DNA of 64,000 bases from Sphaerochaeta sp. GTDB taxonomy: Bacteria > Spirochaetota > Spirochaetia > Sphaerochaetales > Sphaerochaetaceae. A program made the position numbers and the translations under genes. Below are positions 42,489 through 49,679 of this stretch, piece by piece. Below the pieces are notes generated by a model. It saw only the letters and a program-made list of their open reading frames with translations, was not told the DNA's origin and made no database searches. The DNA is taken from contig JAKVPA010000008.1 in the NCBI GenBank assembly GCA_022482495.1, positions 1-64,000 on the forward strand, read 5' to 3'. How positions within the stretch are numbered: the first letter of the stretch is position 1; each line of letters opens with the position of its first letter.

Positions 42489-43566
42489 TTAGTGGCCACG
42501 CCGCGCGTTCTTGTCGATCGCTTCCCACAGTCCGTTGATGTACGTTGCACCCAACGCGCGGTCATACAATCCGTACCCGGGCATCGCCTTCTCGCCCCAG
42601 ATCATCCGTCCGTGGTCCGGCCGGATCGGTCCGTCAAAACCGATGTCGTACAGGGCGCGACAGATCTCGTACAGGTCGAACGAGCCGTCACTGGAAAGGT
42701 GCGCAGCCTCTTCGAACACCCCCGGCGCGAAATGGTGCAGGTTGCGCACATGGGCGAAATGCACCCGTCCGGGAAGCGCGCGGATGATGCCGGGAAGATC
42801 GTTCTTCGGGTTGGTTCCCAAGGAACCGGCGCAGAACGTCAGCCCGTTGTACGGCTTGTCCACCGCTTTCATCAGCTTGAGGATCGACTCCTTGCCGGTG
42901 ATGATCCGGGGAAGCCCGAACACCGGCCATGCGGGATCATCCGGATGGATGGCCATCTTGATGCCGTACTTCTCGCACACCGGCCCGATGGCCTCGAGGA
43001 AGTACACCAGGTTGGCGAACAGCTTGTCGGCGTCCACATCCTTGTAGGCTGCGAACAGCTCCTTCACATGGGCAAGCCGCTCCGGCTCCCAACCGGGCAT
43101 CACATGCCCGCCGCTCTGGTTGTTTGTCTGGTCGAAGAACGTCTGGGGATCGATGGAATCGACTACCTTCTGGTCGTAGGCCAGCACCGGTAGAACCATC
43201 CGGTCGAACTTTCGCCAAGTCGGTCCGCGTCCAGTCAAACACCGGCATGAAGTTGTAACAAACCATGTGGATGCCTTCCAAGGCCAGATTCTCCAAGGTC
43301 TTGATATAGTTGTCGATGTATTTGTCACGGGATGGAAGCCCGATCTTGATGTCGTCATGAACGTTGACGCTCTCGATGCCCAGGATGGACAGGCCGGAGG
43401 CCTCCACCTCTTCCTTCAGGGCATGAATCCGTTCCCGAGGCCACAGCGTGCCGGCGGGAAGATCGTACAACGTGGTGATGACCCCCTTCACTCCGGGGAT
43501 CTGCCGAATCTGCTGCAAGGTGACGGTATCGAACTTCGAACCGTACCAACGTAATGTCATCTGCAT
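42489..43566 (-). CDS. uxuA: Mannonate dehydratase, one frameshift
   Basis: A TIM-barrel enzyme of about 358 residues that dehydrates D-mannonate to 2-keto-3-deoxygluconate. Family segments are LRWYGSKFDTVTLQQIRQIPGVKGVITTLYDLP, VCYNFMPVFDWTRTDLAKVRPDGST, IHPDDPAWPVFGLPRIIT, LTFCAGSLGTNPKND and PIRPDHGRMIWGE, which carry metal-binding His, Cys and Asp residues. A +1 insertion near 43188 divides it; corrected joint PDGSTVLAYDQKVVDSIDPQTFF. The start is ATG at 43566 with AAAGGAG. It is the first gene of the uxuA-gntR-uxuB operon. Confidence 0.92.
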
Positions 43567-43661: not shown

Positions 43662-44813
43662 ATGTTCACCTGGAAACCGGATGCAATCCCCTACCAAAAA
43701 GACGAGTTCTCCCAGAACCCGATGTACCGGGACATCGCCCGGGCCATCGTCCGCCATGGGAGCGGGACAACCTTGTTGGACGCCGGAAGCGGCCTGGGGT
43801 TCCTTTCCGCGGCGTTCGCCTCCCTGGGGTGTTCTGTCATCGCTGTGGAACAGAACCCATTGGTCGCCGCTTCGGCCGTCTTCCCCACTCGGGTGGAGGA
43901 TGTCCACCAGCTTTCCCCTTCGCTCGTGGTGGACACGGTGGCATGCTGCAACTTCGGCTCCACGGTGGAATGCCTCGAGTTGGGGGAAATCCATGCATCG
44001 AAGACACTCTGTCTGGTAAGGCAGAACTGGGGGGGCCACCGCTTCCGACCGGACGCGCCAGAATCCAATCCGGCATCCCGTACCGCGATGATGCTGGACG
44101 CCCTCTCCATCCCTTGGGAGGAAGAGCAGGTGACGGTAGAAGCAGGACAACGGTTCCGAAGTCGTGCCGACGCCGTCCGATTCTTTCAGCTGTGGGGCAA
44201 CGATACCGTCCCGCCGCTTCAAGTCCAAGCGGGATCGTTTCCCTTTCTGTACCACAGGGAAGGCGTGATGCGTCTGTTTTTCATCCGCCGCTCGGACATC
44301 CCAACCATCCGGACCAACCACCTCCTGGTCATCTCCGGTTCCCAGGGGATCGGGAAGAGCACGCTCCGCACCCGGCTTGTCGCACACTGCACGGCTCCCC
44401 AGACAGGATTTCTCACCCACAAACAGGACGACGTCGTCGTACTGGACGGCATCTCAAGTAACATACATGGCATCGTCGGAAAACCAGGCCAGATACGGGC
44501 CGACGGTTTTGATACGTTGGGCGTCCAGGCGCTGCAAACACCGGGAAAGCTGAGGATCATGGATGAGCTGGGATACATGGAGCGGGACGCCCTGCGGTTC
44601 CAGAAGGCGGTGAGGGACGCGCTGCACGACGGGGTGGACACCATCGCCGTGGTGAAGGACCGGAGCACCCCGTTTCTGGACGCCATCCGGAGCGATGCCG
44701 CTTCCTTGTGCGTCCACCTCACTCCGGAAAACAGAAACGCCGTCACGGAGGACCTTTTGCGCTCCGTAACGGCGAATCTCAACTGGCCGCTTGGCAGGCG
44801 GCTCAACGGCTGA
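43662..44813 (+). CDS. Fusion of a SAM-dependent methyltransferase and a THEP1-type NTPase
   Basis: A 383-residue protein of two parts. Residues 1-200 look like a class I methyltransferase, with SAM-binding TTLLDAGSGLGFLSAAFASLGCSVIAVEQNP and a Cys pair in VACCNFGS. Residues 210-383 resemble THEP1 nucleoside-triphosphatases, with Walker A SGSQGIGKST, GFLTHKQ, the DELGYME Walker B (DEIGxME in the family) and a TIAVVKDRS segment. The gene is divergent from uxuA. Its end overlaps the 3' end of the converging ABC-importer operon by 11 bases. A link to metal or cofactor handling is suggested only by that neighbour. The substrate is unknown. Confidence 0.72.
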   Translation: MFTWKPDAIPYQKDEFSQNPMYRDIARAIVRHGSGTTLLDAGSGLGFLSAAFASLGCSVIAVEQNPLVAASAVFPTRVEDVHQLSPSLVVDTVACCNFGSTVECLELGEIHASKTLCLVRQNWGGHRFRPDAPESNPASRTAMMLDALSIPWEEEQVTVEAGQRFRSRADAVRFFQLWGNDTVPPLQVQAGSFPFLYHREGVMRLFFIRRSDIPTIRTNHLLVISGSQGIGKSTLRTRLVAHCTAPQTGFLTHKQDDVVVLDGISSNIHGIVGKPGQIRADGFDTLGVQALQTPGKLRIMDELGYMERDALRFQKAVRDALHDGVDTIAVVKDRSTPFLDAIRSDAASLCVHLTPENRNAVTEDLLRSVTANLNWPLGRRLNG

Positions 44814-45867
44814 GAAGGCTCTGCACCTGTTCGTCGCTCAGCGTGGCGTGATAGAACAATGAGAAATACCGTTTGGCCTCTTCAGCCATATCATACGTGG
44901 CGCGATCGGGATACAGCAGTTTCGCCCCCCACAGCAAACCGAGGAACCGGTTGACGGACGGCGGGTTGGCAAGCCAACCGGCAGGCACATCCGGCGACAG
45001 ATAGTATGTTCCCCGTTTGATTGCCTCCACCTGGGGCCACAGGGGATCCGTCTTCGCCTTCTCGTAGGCGGGCGCCGCGTCCCCGGCGAAGATCACATAC
45101 GGCGGATTCCACCCGAGGATCGCCTCCATGTCCACTTCGTTTCCCGTTCCCTTGGCGGACGGATTCTCCACCACGGCGAGGTTATCCAGGATCATGTCCA
45201 CCGCCTCTCCCTGGTAGCTGTTCTTGGCAAGCACGTTGATGCCTTTCTCGCCCACGACGTAGATACCCTGCACCTTTCCCCCATCGGTGATGGTCTTGAT
45301 GCGCGAGAGCGTCTCGCTGCAGTAATCACCCAGCGTCTTGGCTTCCTTTTCCAACCCAAGGAGCGATCCCAACTTGGCATAGGTCTGGTCCATCGTCGCC
45401 GTGGTCGCGTCGATGTGGATCACCGGGATGCCCAGCTGAGCCTGGATTTTGTCCAGATCTTCCGTCATGTTGTTCTTCCGTTCCCCGACGTCGAAGACCA
45501 CCTGGGGATCCAGATTCAACACTTCCTCCATGTTGAACGTCGCTTTCCCTCCGTAGATCTGGCCGGCGAACGGGAGATCCAGATACTTCGCGTCGACAAT
45601 TCCCTTCGCCGAATCGTTCCACCGGACGGAGATCCCGACGAAGCGGTCTGCCGCCAGCGGGAACAACACGTACTGGGAGATCAAGCCGGAGGGAAGGATC
45701 CGCTCCACCTTGGACGGCAACGTGACGGTCCGCCCCAGATCATCGGTGAATTCCACCGTTGTTGCCGCAGGCGGTGCCTGTTCCACAACCGGTTGTGCAA
45801 AAAGCGACCATGCCATCAGGCATGCCAGCACTACGACAAACACATTTCGTTTCAGATTCAAATTCAT
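44803..45867 (-). CDS. Periplasmic binding protein of an iron/cobalamin-type ABC importer
   Basis: A 354-residue class III binding protein (FecB/BtuF-like). A signal peptide (MNLNLKRNVFVVVLACLMAWSLFA) ends without a lipobox. The mature protein opens with VEFTDDLGRTVTLPSKVERILPSGLISQYVLFPLAADRFVGIS, the usual start of this family. NMEEVLNLDPQVVFDVGERKNNMTEDLDKIQAQLGIPVIHID follows. Ligands in the family are siderophores, haem, cobalamin or other metal complexes; which one is not predictable. The ATG at 45867 overlaps the ATPase stop. The stop end overlaps the converging methyltransferase-THEP1 gene. Confidence 0.88.
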   Translation of the reverse strand: MNLNLKRNVFVVVLACLMAWSLFAQPVVEQAPPAATTVEFTDDLGRTVTLPSKVERILPSGLISQYVLFPLAADRFVGISVRWNDSAKGIVDAKYLDLPFAGQIYGGKATFNMEEVLNLDPQVVFDVGERKNNMTEDLDKIQAQLGIPVIHIDATTATMDQTYAKLGSLLGLEKEAKTLGDYCSETLSRIKTITDGGKVQGIYVVGEKGINVLAKNSYQGEAVDMILDNLAVVENPSAKGTGNEVDMEAILGWNPPYVIFAGDAAPAYEKAKTDPLWPQVEAIKRGTYYLSPDVPAGWLANPPSVNRFLGLLWGAKLLYPDRATYDMAEEAKRYFSLFYHATLSDEQVQSLLSR

Positions 45868-46652
45868 TTCTCCTCTCCCTGTTTCCTGTGGACACACACC
45901 CGGATGGCGTCATCATACAGGCTCTCCATCCGGACATCCACGCCATACACTGATTTGATCATTCCTTCGGTCATCACTTCCTGGGGCGTCCCCTGGGAGA
46001 ACAACCGACCATCCTTGAACACCGCGATCGATGACGAATACTGGTAGGCCTGTTCGGGATTATGGGTGGTCATCACCACGGCGTATCCTTGTTCGGCCAG
46101 ATGGGACACTTCCTCCAGCACCTTGATCTGGTTGCCCAGATCCAGATTGGCCACCGGCTCATCCAACAGCAGGTTCTTCGCTTTCTGCATCAACGACCGG
46201 GCGACCAGCACCAACTGCCGCTCCCCTCCGGATACTTCCAGAAACAGCCGGTCGGCCAATGAGGCGATCCCAAGACCATCCATCGTGGCCAACGCCTCTT
46301 CCCGTTCCCGCGCTCCCGGGCTTCCCAATGCACCGACCCGGTTGTTGGCACCCATCAAGACCATTTCCACACAAGGATAGTTGAACGTCGGATACGATAT
46401 CTGGGGAACATAGGCCAACTGGCGGGACAGCGCTTTGCGCGAGAGGGTGCGGACATCCGTTCCATCCACCATGATGCGCCCCGTCCATCCCGAACGGATG
46501 CCAAGCACGCACTTCAGGAGCGTCGTCTTTCCCGCTCCGTTGGAGCCGATCACCGACGTGACCTGCCCGTCACGGGCGGAGAAATCCACATGGTCCAGGG
46601 CAAGCTTCCCCTCTCCATACCCATAGGTCAGTCCGGATACCACAATACTCAT
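45864..46652 (-). CDS. ATP-binding protein of an iron/cobalamin-type ABC importer
   Basis: A 262-residue FecE/BtuD-like ATPase. Walker A GSNGAGKTTLLK, Q-loop YVPQISYPTFNYPCVEMVLMG, signature VSGGERQLVLVARSLMQ, Walker B NLLLDEPVANLDLGNQ and switch His MTTHNPEQAYQYS are all intact. It powers uptake through the FecCD permease encoded upstream. The ATG at 46652 overlaps the permease stop, and its stop overlaps the binding-protein ATG. All three genes are chained by ATGA overlaps. Confidence 0.92.
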   Translation of the reverse strand: MSIVVSGLTYGYGEGKLALDHVDFSARDGQVTSVIGSNGAGKTTLLKCVLGIRSGWTGRIMVDGTDVRTLSRKALSRQLAYVPQISYPTFNYPCVEMVLMGANNRVGALGSPGAREREEALATMDGLGIASLADRLFLEVSGGERQLVLVARSLMQKAKNLLLDEPVANLDLGNQIKVLEEVSHLAEQGYAVVMTTHNPEQAYQYSSSIAVFKDGRLFSQGTPQEVMTEGMIKSVYGVDVRMESLYDDAIRVCVHRKQGEEK

Positions 46653-47656
46653 AGGTGCTCCTTTCCCCGAAGCATCAAAAAGAGGAAGAACGGAGCCCCG
46701 ACGAACGCCGTAAGGATGCCGATGGGGATCTCGCTGGTCGCGGCACACCGGGCGATGTCATCCACCAGGAGCAGGAACAATGCGCCGAACAACGCCGATG
46801 CGGGGAACACCTTGGTATGGGAGCTGCCGGTGACCTTGCGCGCCAAGTGCGGAACCACCAGACCAACCCAGCCGATCAAGCCACAGGTGGCGATGACCGC
46901 CGAAGTGGCCAACGTGGCGCTGATGACCAACACCCCCCGGAGCCGGTTGACATCCACCCCCAGCGTCAATGCGTCTTCGTCCCCCAGACTGAGAAGATCG
47001 GTTTTCCAGGAAAGAAACAACAACGGCACCACCCCGATGGCAAGCGGCACCACGGCGATCGCCACGGTGTGCCAGTCCGTTCCGGAAAGGCTTCCCATCA
47101 ACCAGTAGGTGATGGCAGGCAATTGGTTGGTGGGGTCGGCGACCAGCTTTATGAACGAGGTGCCCGAACCGCACAGCGAACCGACCATGATGCCGGAGAG
47201 GATCAACCCGGTGGTGCGGCGGGTCTTCAGCGCCCGGGACAGGGCATAGACCAACATCACCGTAGCCAAGCTGGCAAGAAATGAGAGGGCCATCACCCCG
47301 GAGGCAGGAAAGCCCAGCAGAATGGCAAGCGCCGCGCCGAACGCTGCGCCATTGGACGATCCCAGGATGTCAGGGCTGGCCATCGGGTTCTGGAACACCC
47401 CCTGGTACGTCGCGCCGGAAAGGGACAACGCCAGCCCGGCCAACATCGCCATGACGATGCGCGGCAGACGGATGGAGAACACGACCCGTTCCATGGCGAC
47501 TGTCCAGGTCCGATGGATCGGCACGATCCGTGACAGCAGGATCCGCACCACATCCCCCATGGACAAGGCATACCGTCCCCACGTGATGGAGAGACAGAAC
47601 ACCACCAAAAGCAACAGGGTGGTGACAATCCAAATGAATGGGCCACGGCGTGTCAT
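46649..47656 (-). CDS. Permease of an iron/cobalamin-type ABC importer (FecCD family)
   Basis: A 335-residue membrane protein with about ten helices. FecCD family features are IRLPRIVMAMLAGLALSLSGATYQGVFQNPMASPDILGSSNGAAFGAALAI, ITYWLMGSLSGTDW, LGVDVNRLRGVLVISATLATSAVIATCGLIGWVGLVVPHLAR and the C-terminal EIPIGILTAFVGAPFFLFLMLRGKE. It is the first gene of the importer operon. The start ATG at 47656 has no strong ribosome binding site and lies just below a promoter with an inverted repeat (47671-47704). Confidence 0.92.
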   Translation of the reverse strand: MTRRGPFIWIVTTLLLLVVFCLSITWGRYALSMGDVVRILLSRIVPIHRTWTVAMERVVFSIRLPRIVMAMLAGLALSLSGATYQGVFQNPMASPDILGSSNGAAFGAALAILLGFPASGVMALSFLASLATVMLVYALSRALKTRRTTGLILSGIMVGSLCGSGTSFIKLVADPTNQLPAITYWLMGSLSGTDWHTVAIAVVPLAIGVVPLLFLSWKTDLLSLGDEDALTLGVDVNRLRGVLVISATLATSAVIATCGLIGWVGLVVPHLARKVTGSSHTKVFPASALFGALFLLLVDDIARCAATSEIPIGILTAFVGAPFFLFLMLRGKEHL

Positions 47657-47769: not shown

Positions 47770-48381
47770 TTACTGCAGATTCAGCAACAACGAAACACCA
47801 AACTTCCCACTGTCCCAATCCACGTCAATCAGATTCTGGACATTGGTGTAATCATTGAACGTGTAGGAGGTATCCACCATGTAGCTGGCTCCTACGGAGA
47901 GCCCGCCCAGCATGAAGTCAACCATGGCGCGATAGGTCATCGGAGCGTTCATCACGACATTCTGGAACGAGGCGCCATCGACCACGGTACCATCCTGCGT
48001 CTTCACCTGCCATGTACCATCGTTGTTCTCCGCGCGGAGACGGGGTCCAAGACCGACACCGACACGGATGGTGTCCAACAGGTCCATCGCCAAGCCGGCG
48101 GTGACGATGCCGGAGATTTCCGGCATTCCGGAACCGTCGGTGGACGAGCCGCTGTACAATCCCATGGCGGTGATGTCAAGCATCAGCAGCTTCAGACGTA
48201 CGTCCGCGCCAAACGTATAGTTATTAATGTCCTTGAATGCTTCCGTATCATCCGTAACACTGCCTGCGTTGACGCTGTACATGGCGATTCCTCCCAGACT
48301 CAGGCTGATGGCTTTCGCAAACAGCAGGGAGGGTATCAACAGTACGACAAGCACCAATGCAAGTATCATTCTTTTTTTCAT
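47770..48381 (-). CDS. Small outer-membrane beta-barrel-like protein, paralogue 1
   Basis: A 203-residue exported protein with signal peptide MKKRMILALVLVVLLIPSLLFA. The mature part is rich in Gly and alternating hydrophobic residues, as in small beta-barrels. The ending NLIDVDWDSGKFGVSLLLNLQ resembles that of the neighbouring paralogue (DLLDVDWNTGRYGFLIKYLW). Both also share a central GLGPRLRAENNDGTW / GPRFRVVRDGDGNFW region. It is the last of three tandem genes and is followed by a terminator. No family name is recognised. A structural or porin-like envelope role is likely but unproven. Confidence 0.7.
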   Translation of the reverse strand: MKKRMILALVLVVLLIPSLLFAKAISLSLGGIAMYSVNAGSVTDDTEAFKDINNYTFGADVRLKLLMLDITAMGLYSGSSTDGSGMPEISGIVTAGLAMDLLDTIRVGVGLGPRLRAENNDGTWQVKTQDGTVVDGASFQNVVMNAPMTYRAMVDFMLGGLSVGASYMVDTSYTFNDYTNVQNLIDVDWDSGKFGVSLLLNLQ

Positions 48382-48436
48382 AATGTTTCTCCTTGTTGTA
48401 TCAGTCTATCGGGATTTTTCCAAATCCACAAGAAAC

Positions 48437-49018
48437 TCACCAAAGGTATTTGATGAGAAAACCGTATCTTCCCGTGTTCCAATCCACATCCAGCAGGTCC
48501 TTCACCTCATACCAGTGTTTAAAACGAAACAACGTATCCACCTGATAGGTTACACCGAACGCCACCGGTCCGGTCTGCCATTCGGCTGATGCGCGGTACG
48601 CCACCGGGGAATAGGAAAAATATTCGATGACCTTCTCCGCCTCGGTGAGGAACCCGTCATTATCGTAGCGCCAGAAGTTGCCATCACCATCACGAACCAC
48701 ACGGAAACGAGGTCCCGCCTCAATACCCAGCCGCACCGGACCAAGTTTCAGGGATGGTCCCAGACTGGGGAACACGGAAAACTCAGAGACGTCGTTCTCT
48801 TCCATCCGGGCTTCCCCGGTGAGGCTGAATCCAAACCACATCACGTGGGCGTACCCACCCAGCTGGATACCCCAATCAGAAGAGGAAACAGGAAACGGTG
48901 TCGTGACGCCCGCACCAAAACCGCCACCCACATCCCCCTCCGCACACAACACACCCATCAACGACAGAGCTACGAGGACCATCCCGAACCGTTTGCCCAT
49001 ACCCCACCTCATGCTCAA
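48437..49018 (-). CDS. Small outer-membrane beta-barrel-like protein, paralogue 2
   Basis: A 193-residue exported protein. A signal peptide (about residues 8-26, KRFGMVLVALSLMGVLCAEG) is followed by Gly/Phe-rich strands (GGGFGAGVTTPFPVSS, WGIQLGGYAHVMWFGFSLTGEARM) and PSLGPSLKLGPVRLGIEAGPRFRVVRDGDG. The C-terminal DLLDVDWNTGRYGFLIKYLW ends in an aromatic residue, a common outer-membrane insertion signal. The start ATG at 49018 overlaps the upstream gene's stop by four bases. It is clearly related to the downstream paralogue. Confidence 0.7.
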   Translation of the reverse strand: MSMRWGMGKRFGMVLVALSLMGVLCAEGDVGGGFGAGVTTPFPVSSSDWGIQLGGYAHVMWFGFSLTGEARMEENDVSEFSVFPSLGPSLKLGPVRLGIEAGPRFRVVRDGDGNFWRYDNDGFLTEAEKVIEYFSYSPVAYRASAEWQTGPVAFGVTYQVDTLFRFKHWYEVKDLLDVDWNTGRYGFLIKYLW

Positions 49019-49632
49019 TAAATGTCCAGACTCAACGCGAAGGTCAACATCCCCTCGCTTGTCCTGAAGAAATCAGAAATGCTGGGGGACGAACGAAGCG
49101 TGGAGAGGGAAAGGTTCGTAGGACAAAGATACCCGGCATGAAACCCGAAATTCCCCACCTGCGCGGAAAGCCCGATCTTCCAATACATACGACTGTGCAT
49201 CAGCAACGAACCGAACGACGTGGAAGAATCCACCACGGAACCATCGGCGAGTTCATAGCGGAAGGCGCTGTCACTTTCACTCTTGGTCGGCACAAGCATC
49301 CCCAGCGACGGGCCGAACCCAAATTCCAGATTGGACACGACGGAGAGCGGAATGGAAACACCAGGCATCATCAGGATGAGCAGTTTGCTTTCGTCATCCG
49401 AGTAAGAGAACGGCAAAAACGACGCTTCCACCGTCATCAAGGAAAAGCGAAATGCCATCCCACCGCCAATATGCCAATTGTCAAACGACTGCATTCCTGC
49501 ACCATAGCCACCATCTCCGGGGTACAGATACCCGCCCACCACCTGCAACGACGCGGTGGAAAGGGATCGGGCGCCCACGGCGCCACAAAGGAGGCACAGC
49601 AGCATGATGCTGAACAATCGTTTGAGTTTCAT
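49015..49632 (-). CDS. Small outer-membrane beta-barrel-like protein, paralogue 3, with start codon in a hairpin loop
   Basis: About 205 residues, with signal peptide MKLKRLFSIMLLCLLCGAVGA. The mature region is Gly-rich (VVGGYLYPGDGGYGAGMQSFDNWHIGGGMAFRFSLM) and shares NLEFGFGPSLGMLVPTKSESDSAFRYELADGSVVD with the layout of the two downstream paralogues. It ends LTFALSLDIY, again aromatic. ATG 49632 is chosen; ATG 49638 two codons earlier is equally in frame. Both lie in the loop of a ten-base-pair RNA hairpin (49620-49648), so translation of this operon's first gene may be structurally controlled. Confidence 0.68.
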   Translation of the reverse strand: MKLKRLFSIMLLCLLCGAVGARSLSTASLQVVGGYLYPGDGGYGAGMQSFDNWHIGGGMAFRFSLMTVEASFLPFSYSDDESKLLILMMPGVSIPLSVVSNLEFGFGPSLGMLVPTKSESDSAFRYELADGSVVDSSTSFGSLLMHSRMYWKIGLSAQVGNFGFHAGYLCPTNLSLSTLRSSPSISDFFRTSEGMLTFALSLDIY

Positions 49633-49648
49633 ATGCATAAACTCAAAC
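49620..49648 (-). promoter_or_regulatory. Hairpin that places the start codon in its loop
   Basis: On the minus strand GTTTGAGTTT, ATGCATATG, AAACTCAAAC. The ten-base arms are perfectly complementary and the nine-base loop contains both in-frame ATG codons. The only weak ribosome-binding GAG lies inside the left arm. The repeat could also be a protein-binding site on DNA. Confidence 0.6.
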
Positions 49649-49679
49649 AAGAATCATATAAGAAAGATACAAAAAACCT

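Follow-up and report, generated by a model that had tools for sequence, protein, structure and literature searches.

Gene content of the locus

The window analysed here, a stretch of 64,000 nucleotides from Sphaerochaeta sp., carries on its forward strand a single uninterrupted frame of 383 aa (43662..44813, +), in which a predicted methyltransferase (MT) is fused to a THEP1 domain and which is retained in two congeners. Converging with it on the reverse strand lie the genes of an ABC importer, namely a substrate-binding protein (SBP) of the Peripla_BP_2 type (44803..45867, -; Pfam, with a weak likeness to MolA, HI_1472), an ATPase (45864..46655, -; NCBIfam and Pfam) and a permease of the FecCD family (46649..47656, -; PF01032, 296 bits). 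As the stop of the SBP gene lies at 44803, the fusion and SBP genes overlap tail to tail by 11 bases (44803..44813). The fusion of both domains in one chain, its intact NTPase motifs and this overlap had been claimed in a preliminary description of the DNA, and all three were confirmed.

Upstream of the importer, three successive genes (47770-49650, -) encode secreted, probably beta-rich proteins of ~200 aa without a Pfam match. On the other side of the fusion, a mannonate-dehydratase-like gene (42489-43566, -), which we take to be uxuA-like, is split across the overlapping frames 42489-43358 and 42937-43566, with an apparent frameshift near 43190 that indicates either a disrupted gene or a mistake in the assembly.

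The two domains of the fusion protein

The N-terminal domain (aa 1-205; 43662..44276, +) was delimited with an HMM of unfused importer MTs, an alignment and a profile search against the PDB, and contains the SAM motif I LLDAGSGLG (43773-43799, +). It scored 99.6 bits with the HMM, which was built from 20 unfused importer MTs, compared to less than 47 bits for unrelated MTs from the fetched loci. When taken alone, the window sequence was below the gathering scores of the Pfam MT families (PF04445, 25.9 vs 26.0; PF08241, 13 vs 21.2), and the profile of the whole MT family matched many solved class I MTs (241 chains; best E 2e-13), TehB among them. The N-terminus is thus predicted, from sequence comparison, to be a class I SAM methyltransferase. 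The region of SAM motif I is shared with orphan class I MTs such as CpaM and those of the PRK14968 type (NCBIfam, 17.7 and 24.4 bits), but these scores are far under the respective cut-offs, and the importer MTs form a separate orthologous family with a FGQPFRS..DA motif in the alignment. An AlphaFold2 model of the fusion, made without an alignment, was unusable (pLDDT 35), and a plasmid search with the fusion protein gave no match.

The C-terminal domain (aa 215-383; 44304..44810, +) was assigned to THEP1/NTPase_1 by Pfam, alignment and tree. PF03266 matched the fusion protein with 64.6 bits, above its curated gathering score of 23.9 bits, the best stretch covering profile positions 75-167 of 168, and the NCBIfam THEP1 model NF010248 matched residues 222-373 (E 3e-15) with 56 bits, below its equivalog cut-off of 156 bits. 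Walker A (GSQGIGKST, aa 226-234; 44337..44363, +) and the Walker B region with its catalytic Glu (DELGYME, aa 301-307; 44562..44582, +) are both present, and the G and K of the former (columns G12 and K18) and the D, E, G and E of the latter (columns D87, E88, G90 and E93) are invariant in the THEP1 alignment. A PF03266 match above the gathering score, Walker A and a DE..ME motif are shared with the known THEP1 family (PF03266, COG1618; Aquifex aq_1292, PDB 1YE8), from which the window protein differs by its fusion to an MT and by its membership of a clade found alongside importer and Mo/Se genes, instead of being generic or linked to a tRNA MT.

Conservation of the fusion within the genus

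The preliminary description had proposed a search for the same fusion and its neighbours in other anaerobes. A search of 139 family genomes found the full fusion in three species, all from the genus of the window, whereas in relatives MT and THEP1 accompany the importer as split genes. The fusions of the two congeners (G082 and G083) are 37-39% identical to the window protein, and in both of them the convergent overlap with an SBP-ATPase-permease operon is kept, with 23 bases. Between these two, the dN/dS of the fusion was 0.21 (0.20 for the MT and 0.23 for the THEP1 half). As the ratio is about 0.2 in each half, both halves appear to be maintained by purifying selection and, as two congeneric species retain the fusion together with the convergent importer overlap at a dN/dS of 0.21, the frame is not a product of chance.

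Neither the window nor the fetched flanks of the two congeners contain a Mo or Se gene near the fusion. Within the genus, then, fusion and importer stand apart from such genes, and the neighbourhood evidence comes from relatives.

The unfused methyltransferase in the rest of the family

In the other genera of the family, MT is encoded by its own gene within the importer operon, mostly in the order permease-ATPase-MT-SBP or SBP-permease-ATPase-MT. Within 10 kb of the family MTs, the permease was found in 42 of 43 loci, the ATPase in all 43 and the SBP in 42. The link to a FecCD importer, already suspected from the window, is therefore real and conserved, down to the gene overlap in the two congeners. 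The genes within the same distance also included a ModE-type HTH protein (17/43), XdhC (22/43; ModE or XdhC, 29/43), SelD (20/43), YedE (16/43), DUF3343 (16/43), YqeC (14/43) and YqeB (13/43), with at least one selenium-trait gene in 25 of the 43 loci. By our own estimate, which assumes one SelD per genome of roughly 2 Mb, SelD would be expected by chance in such a span in ~1% of genomes. Of the 23 loci with flanks of 6 kb or more on each side, 18 had a Se or Mo gene. The identity of SelD, YqeB, YqeC, YedE, the ModE domain and the XdhC-like proteins was verified with curated models. The most complete locus (L041) comprises YqeC, YqeB, an EF2568-like protein, YedE, DUF3343, SelD, THEP1, ModE, SBP, permease, ATPase and MT. 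Only adjacency was counted, as XdhC and the Mo-binding domain PF02738 are present in nearly all family genomes and their mere presence is uninformative.

A minority of the family members have a separate THEP1 gene inside the cluster. As most members have the importer and MT without THEP1, the latter is not essential to the importer-MT pair. Two species from a different genus (G138, L053 10980-11663; G136, L059 3328-3870) have an unrelated class I MT gene in divergent orientation next to the same importer and a THEP1 gene, as if a different MT filled the same slot; both MTs had matched a loose iterated HMM and were dropped as orthologues when the strict HMM gave 32-34 bits.

Relatives outside the family

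The rest of the phylum sample yielded no MT orthologue, all other matches being below 60 bits. In the class of G498, which by our inference is of the Clostridia type, the MT was present in 8 of 341 genomes, and in some of them THEP1 and MT lie side by side as individual genes, next to ModE, DUF364 or a Mo-hydroxylase cluster. One locus (L108) has permease, ATPase, MT, SBP and THEP1 as one run, and in another (L110) MT-THEP1 is divergent from an importer. ModE-THEP1-MT was found in L115 and also, ahead of genes for a Mo hydroxylase, YqeC, XdhC and YqeB, in L112 and L114. In the Rfam scan of the loci, a Mo/W riboswitch (RF01055, 60.8 bits) was detected at L112 only, just ahead of the first gene of the operon, with an apparent terminator hairpin behind it. 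The fusion thus joins two proteins that elsewhere are separate yet neighbouring.

Two further loci (L109 and L111) have a DUF364 (metal-chelation) protein and a CobW-like GTPase by the MT and are devoid of Mo genes. Cobalamin riboswitches near both loci precede neighbouring operons and for this reason were set aside as support for cobalamin; a strong one in L109 (6188-6365) lies ahead of a divergent operon that, by eye, looks like bza cobamide lower-ligand genes. In two Clostridia, the ECF 'ABC_cobalt' component PF09819, which belongs to a different importer type, is encoded next to THEP1 or THEP1-MT (L032, 5739-6284; L115, 5468-6001).

Phylogeny of the THEP1 domain

We know of no established function for THEP1 proteins. 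In a tree of 47 THEP1 domains, the fusions grouped with the THEP1s of importer and Mo clusters, apart from the generic THEP1s of the family, with support of 100/99 on both sides. In Methanocorpusculum, a THEP1 of the fusion clade comes after MoeA-like and ModA-like genes.

In the 2005 paper on the THEP1 structure, a link to tRNA was proposed because THEP1 lies beside a COG1867 tRNA methyltransferase in four archaeal genomes (PMC1079890). By analogy, MT-THEP1 could be a pair that modifies nucleic acid, such as tRNA, with the importer as a chance neighbour, but the link to the importer, present at 42 of the 43 loci, the separation of the fusion clade from the generic THEP1s and the partial matches of the window MT to the RNA-MT models of NCBIfam, far under their cut-off, make this highly improbable.

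The substrate of the importer

When the window SBP was compared with solved SBPs, MolA was not the closest but the fourth match (6e-11); the best was 4pag (1e-22), and the three ahead of MolA are named just periplasmic or iron-complex binding proteins. MolBC-A of Haemophilus influenzae (HI1470-1472), a type II system that imports molybdate with low affinity and works beside ModBC-A (PMC4031551), resembles the window importer in having a FecCD-type permease, an ATPase and a Peripla_BP_2 SBP, and the window SBP is weakly similar to HI_1472. In contrast to MolBC-A, importers of the window type are accompanied by an MT gene, often as part of the operon, and by THEP1 in some lineages, and their ligand is putative.

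The preliminary description had pointed to a metal complex or to cobalamin. Uptake of another metal or complex (cobalt, nickel, iron-siderophore or cobalamin), to be processed afterwards by MT-THEP1, would agree with the best-scoring NCBIfam models for the FecCD permease and ATPase, which are those of B12 and iron importers, and with the CobW-like GTPase and DUF364 by the MT in L109 and L111 and PF09819 by THEP1 in L032 and L115; on account of these Clostridia loci, the substrate could be another metal. However, the window importer reached neither the curated cut-off of BtuC (229.8 vs 461 bits) nor that of the corrinoid ATPase (189.7 vs 537 bits), no cobalamin riboswitch was matched by Rfam near the importer operon or elsewhere in the window, those near L109 and L111 precede neighbouring operons, and genes for Mo and Se prevail in the neighbourhoods, so that we regard this alternative as unlikely. 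Of the earlier interpretation, the fusion and the importer link stand, whereas the partner system appears to be Mo/W and Se-dependent Mo hydroxylases (ModE, MoeA, XdhC, YqeB, YqeC, SelD and one Mo/W riboswitch) instead of cobalamin. The methylated cofactor that was also suggested there is a conceivable substrate.

The selenium genes allow another reading, in which the importer would take up a selenium compound and a TehB-like MT would methylate selenide or a seleno-intermediate, either to detoxify it or to serve the labile Se cofactor, with the assistance of THEP1. SelD, YedE, EF2568-like proteins, DUF3343 (Se_S_carrier), YqeB and YqeC do adjoin the importer-MT in many relatives, and TehB structures are among the matches of the MT profile, but TehB is one of many in that list. 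Moreover, ModE, MoeA, DUF364 and the Mo/W riboswitch indicate a metal, the Clostridia loci L108-L111 have no Se-trait genes nearby, and YedE, a putative Se transporter, is already alongside the importer-MT; we consider selenium handling quite unlikely.

Molybdenum and selenium genes in the genome of the window

The fusion is the sole PF03266 protein of the genome. The trait of selenium-dependent molybdenum hydroxylases (SDMH) is represented there by SelD, YqeB, YqeC and a Se-dependent xanthine dehydrogenase, the latter with 1326 bits vs a cut-off of 830 bits. SelD and YqeC lie on contig C3 together with an EF2568-type desulfurase and an XdhC-like protein, YqeB on C6 and the dehydrogenase on C4, whereas the window belongs to C8; the fusion is thus not adjacent to SDMH genes. 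Compared to the SDMH gene set described by Haft and Self (2008, PMC2276186), relatives place importer, MT and THEP1 among selD, yqeB, yqeC, EF2568-like and xdhC genes, but in the window's genome the set lies at other loci and in its genus the fusion is not adjacent to it. Importer, MT and THEP1 were unnamed in the SDMH literature searched.

A ModA-like SBP is also present in this genome (214 bits), and therefore the importer is not its sole Mo candidate; the coexistence is like that of ModBC-A with MolBC-A in H. influenzae. No strong ModA-like SBP was found in the two congeners (best 76 bits). PF13531 was discarded as a ModA marker, being too general save at high scores.

A putative role in molybdenum supply

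The reading that we prefer, with moderate confidence, is that MT-THEP1 assists, as an accessory protein, an importer of the FecCD kind (type II, MolBC-like) that supplies Mo/W to xanthine-dehydrogenase-type Mo hydroxylases; the hydroxylase served in this organism is probably the selenium-dependent one. The substrate may alternatively be tungsten, some other metal or a compound of selenium. As we infer the imported ligand, the MT chemistry and the NTPase step, the importer would bring in molybdenum or tungsten, as an oxyanion or a complex, and MT-THEP1 would work after this import step, either on the metal itself or on its ligand or a carrier. The MT domain would bind SAM and alter either the complex taken up or a ligand or protein involved in its handling, and the THEP1 domain would spend ATP or GTP on a hand-over or conformational step.

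A more specific version, which we hold to be decidedly unlikely, is that the importer takes up an organic Mo/W complex instead of the free oxyanion, and that MT-THEP1 opens or remodels this complex by methylation and NTP-driven release, loading the selenium-dependent Mo hydroxylases. If true, this would be a metal-complex salvage route for molybdenum.

To our knowledge, little is understood of how labile-selenium Mo hydroxylases mature. That MT and THEP1 are naturally fused says that the two act together, and offers a single protein to purify. Under the preferred reading of a role in Mo/W import, a clade of THEP1 and a family of orphan MTs would gain a connection with the supply of molybdenum and, in many species, with the Mo hydroxylases with labile selenium.
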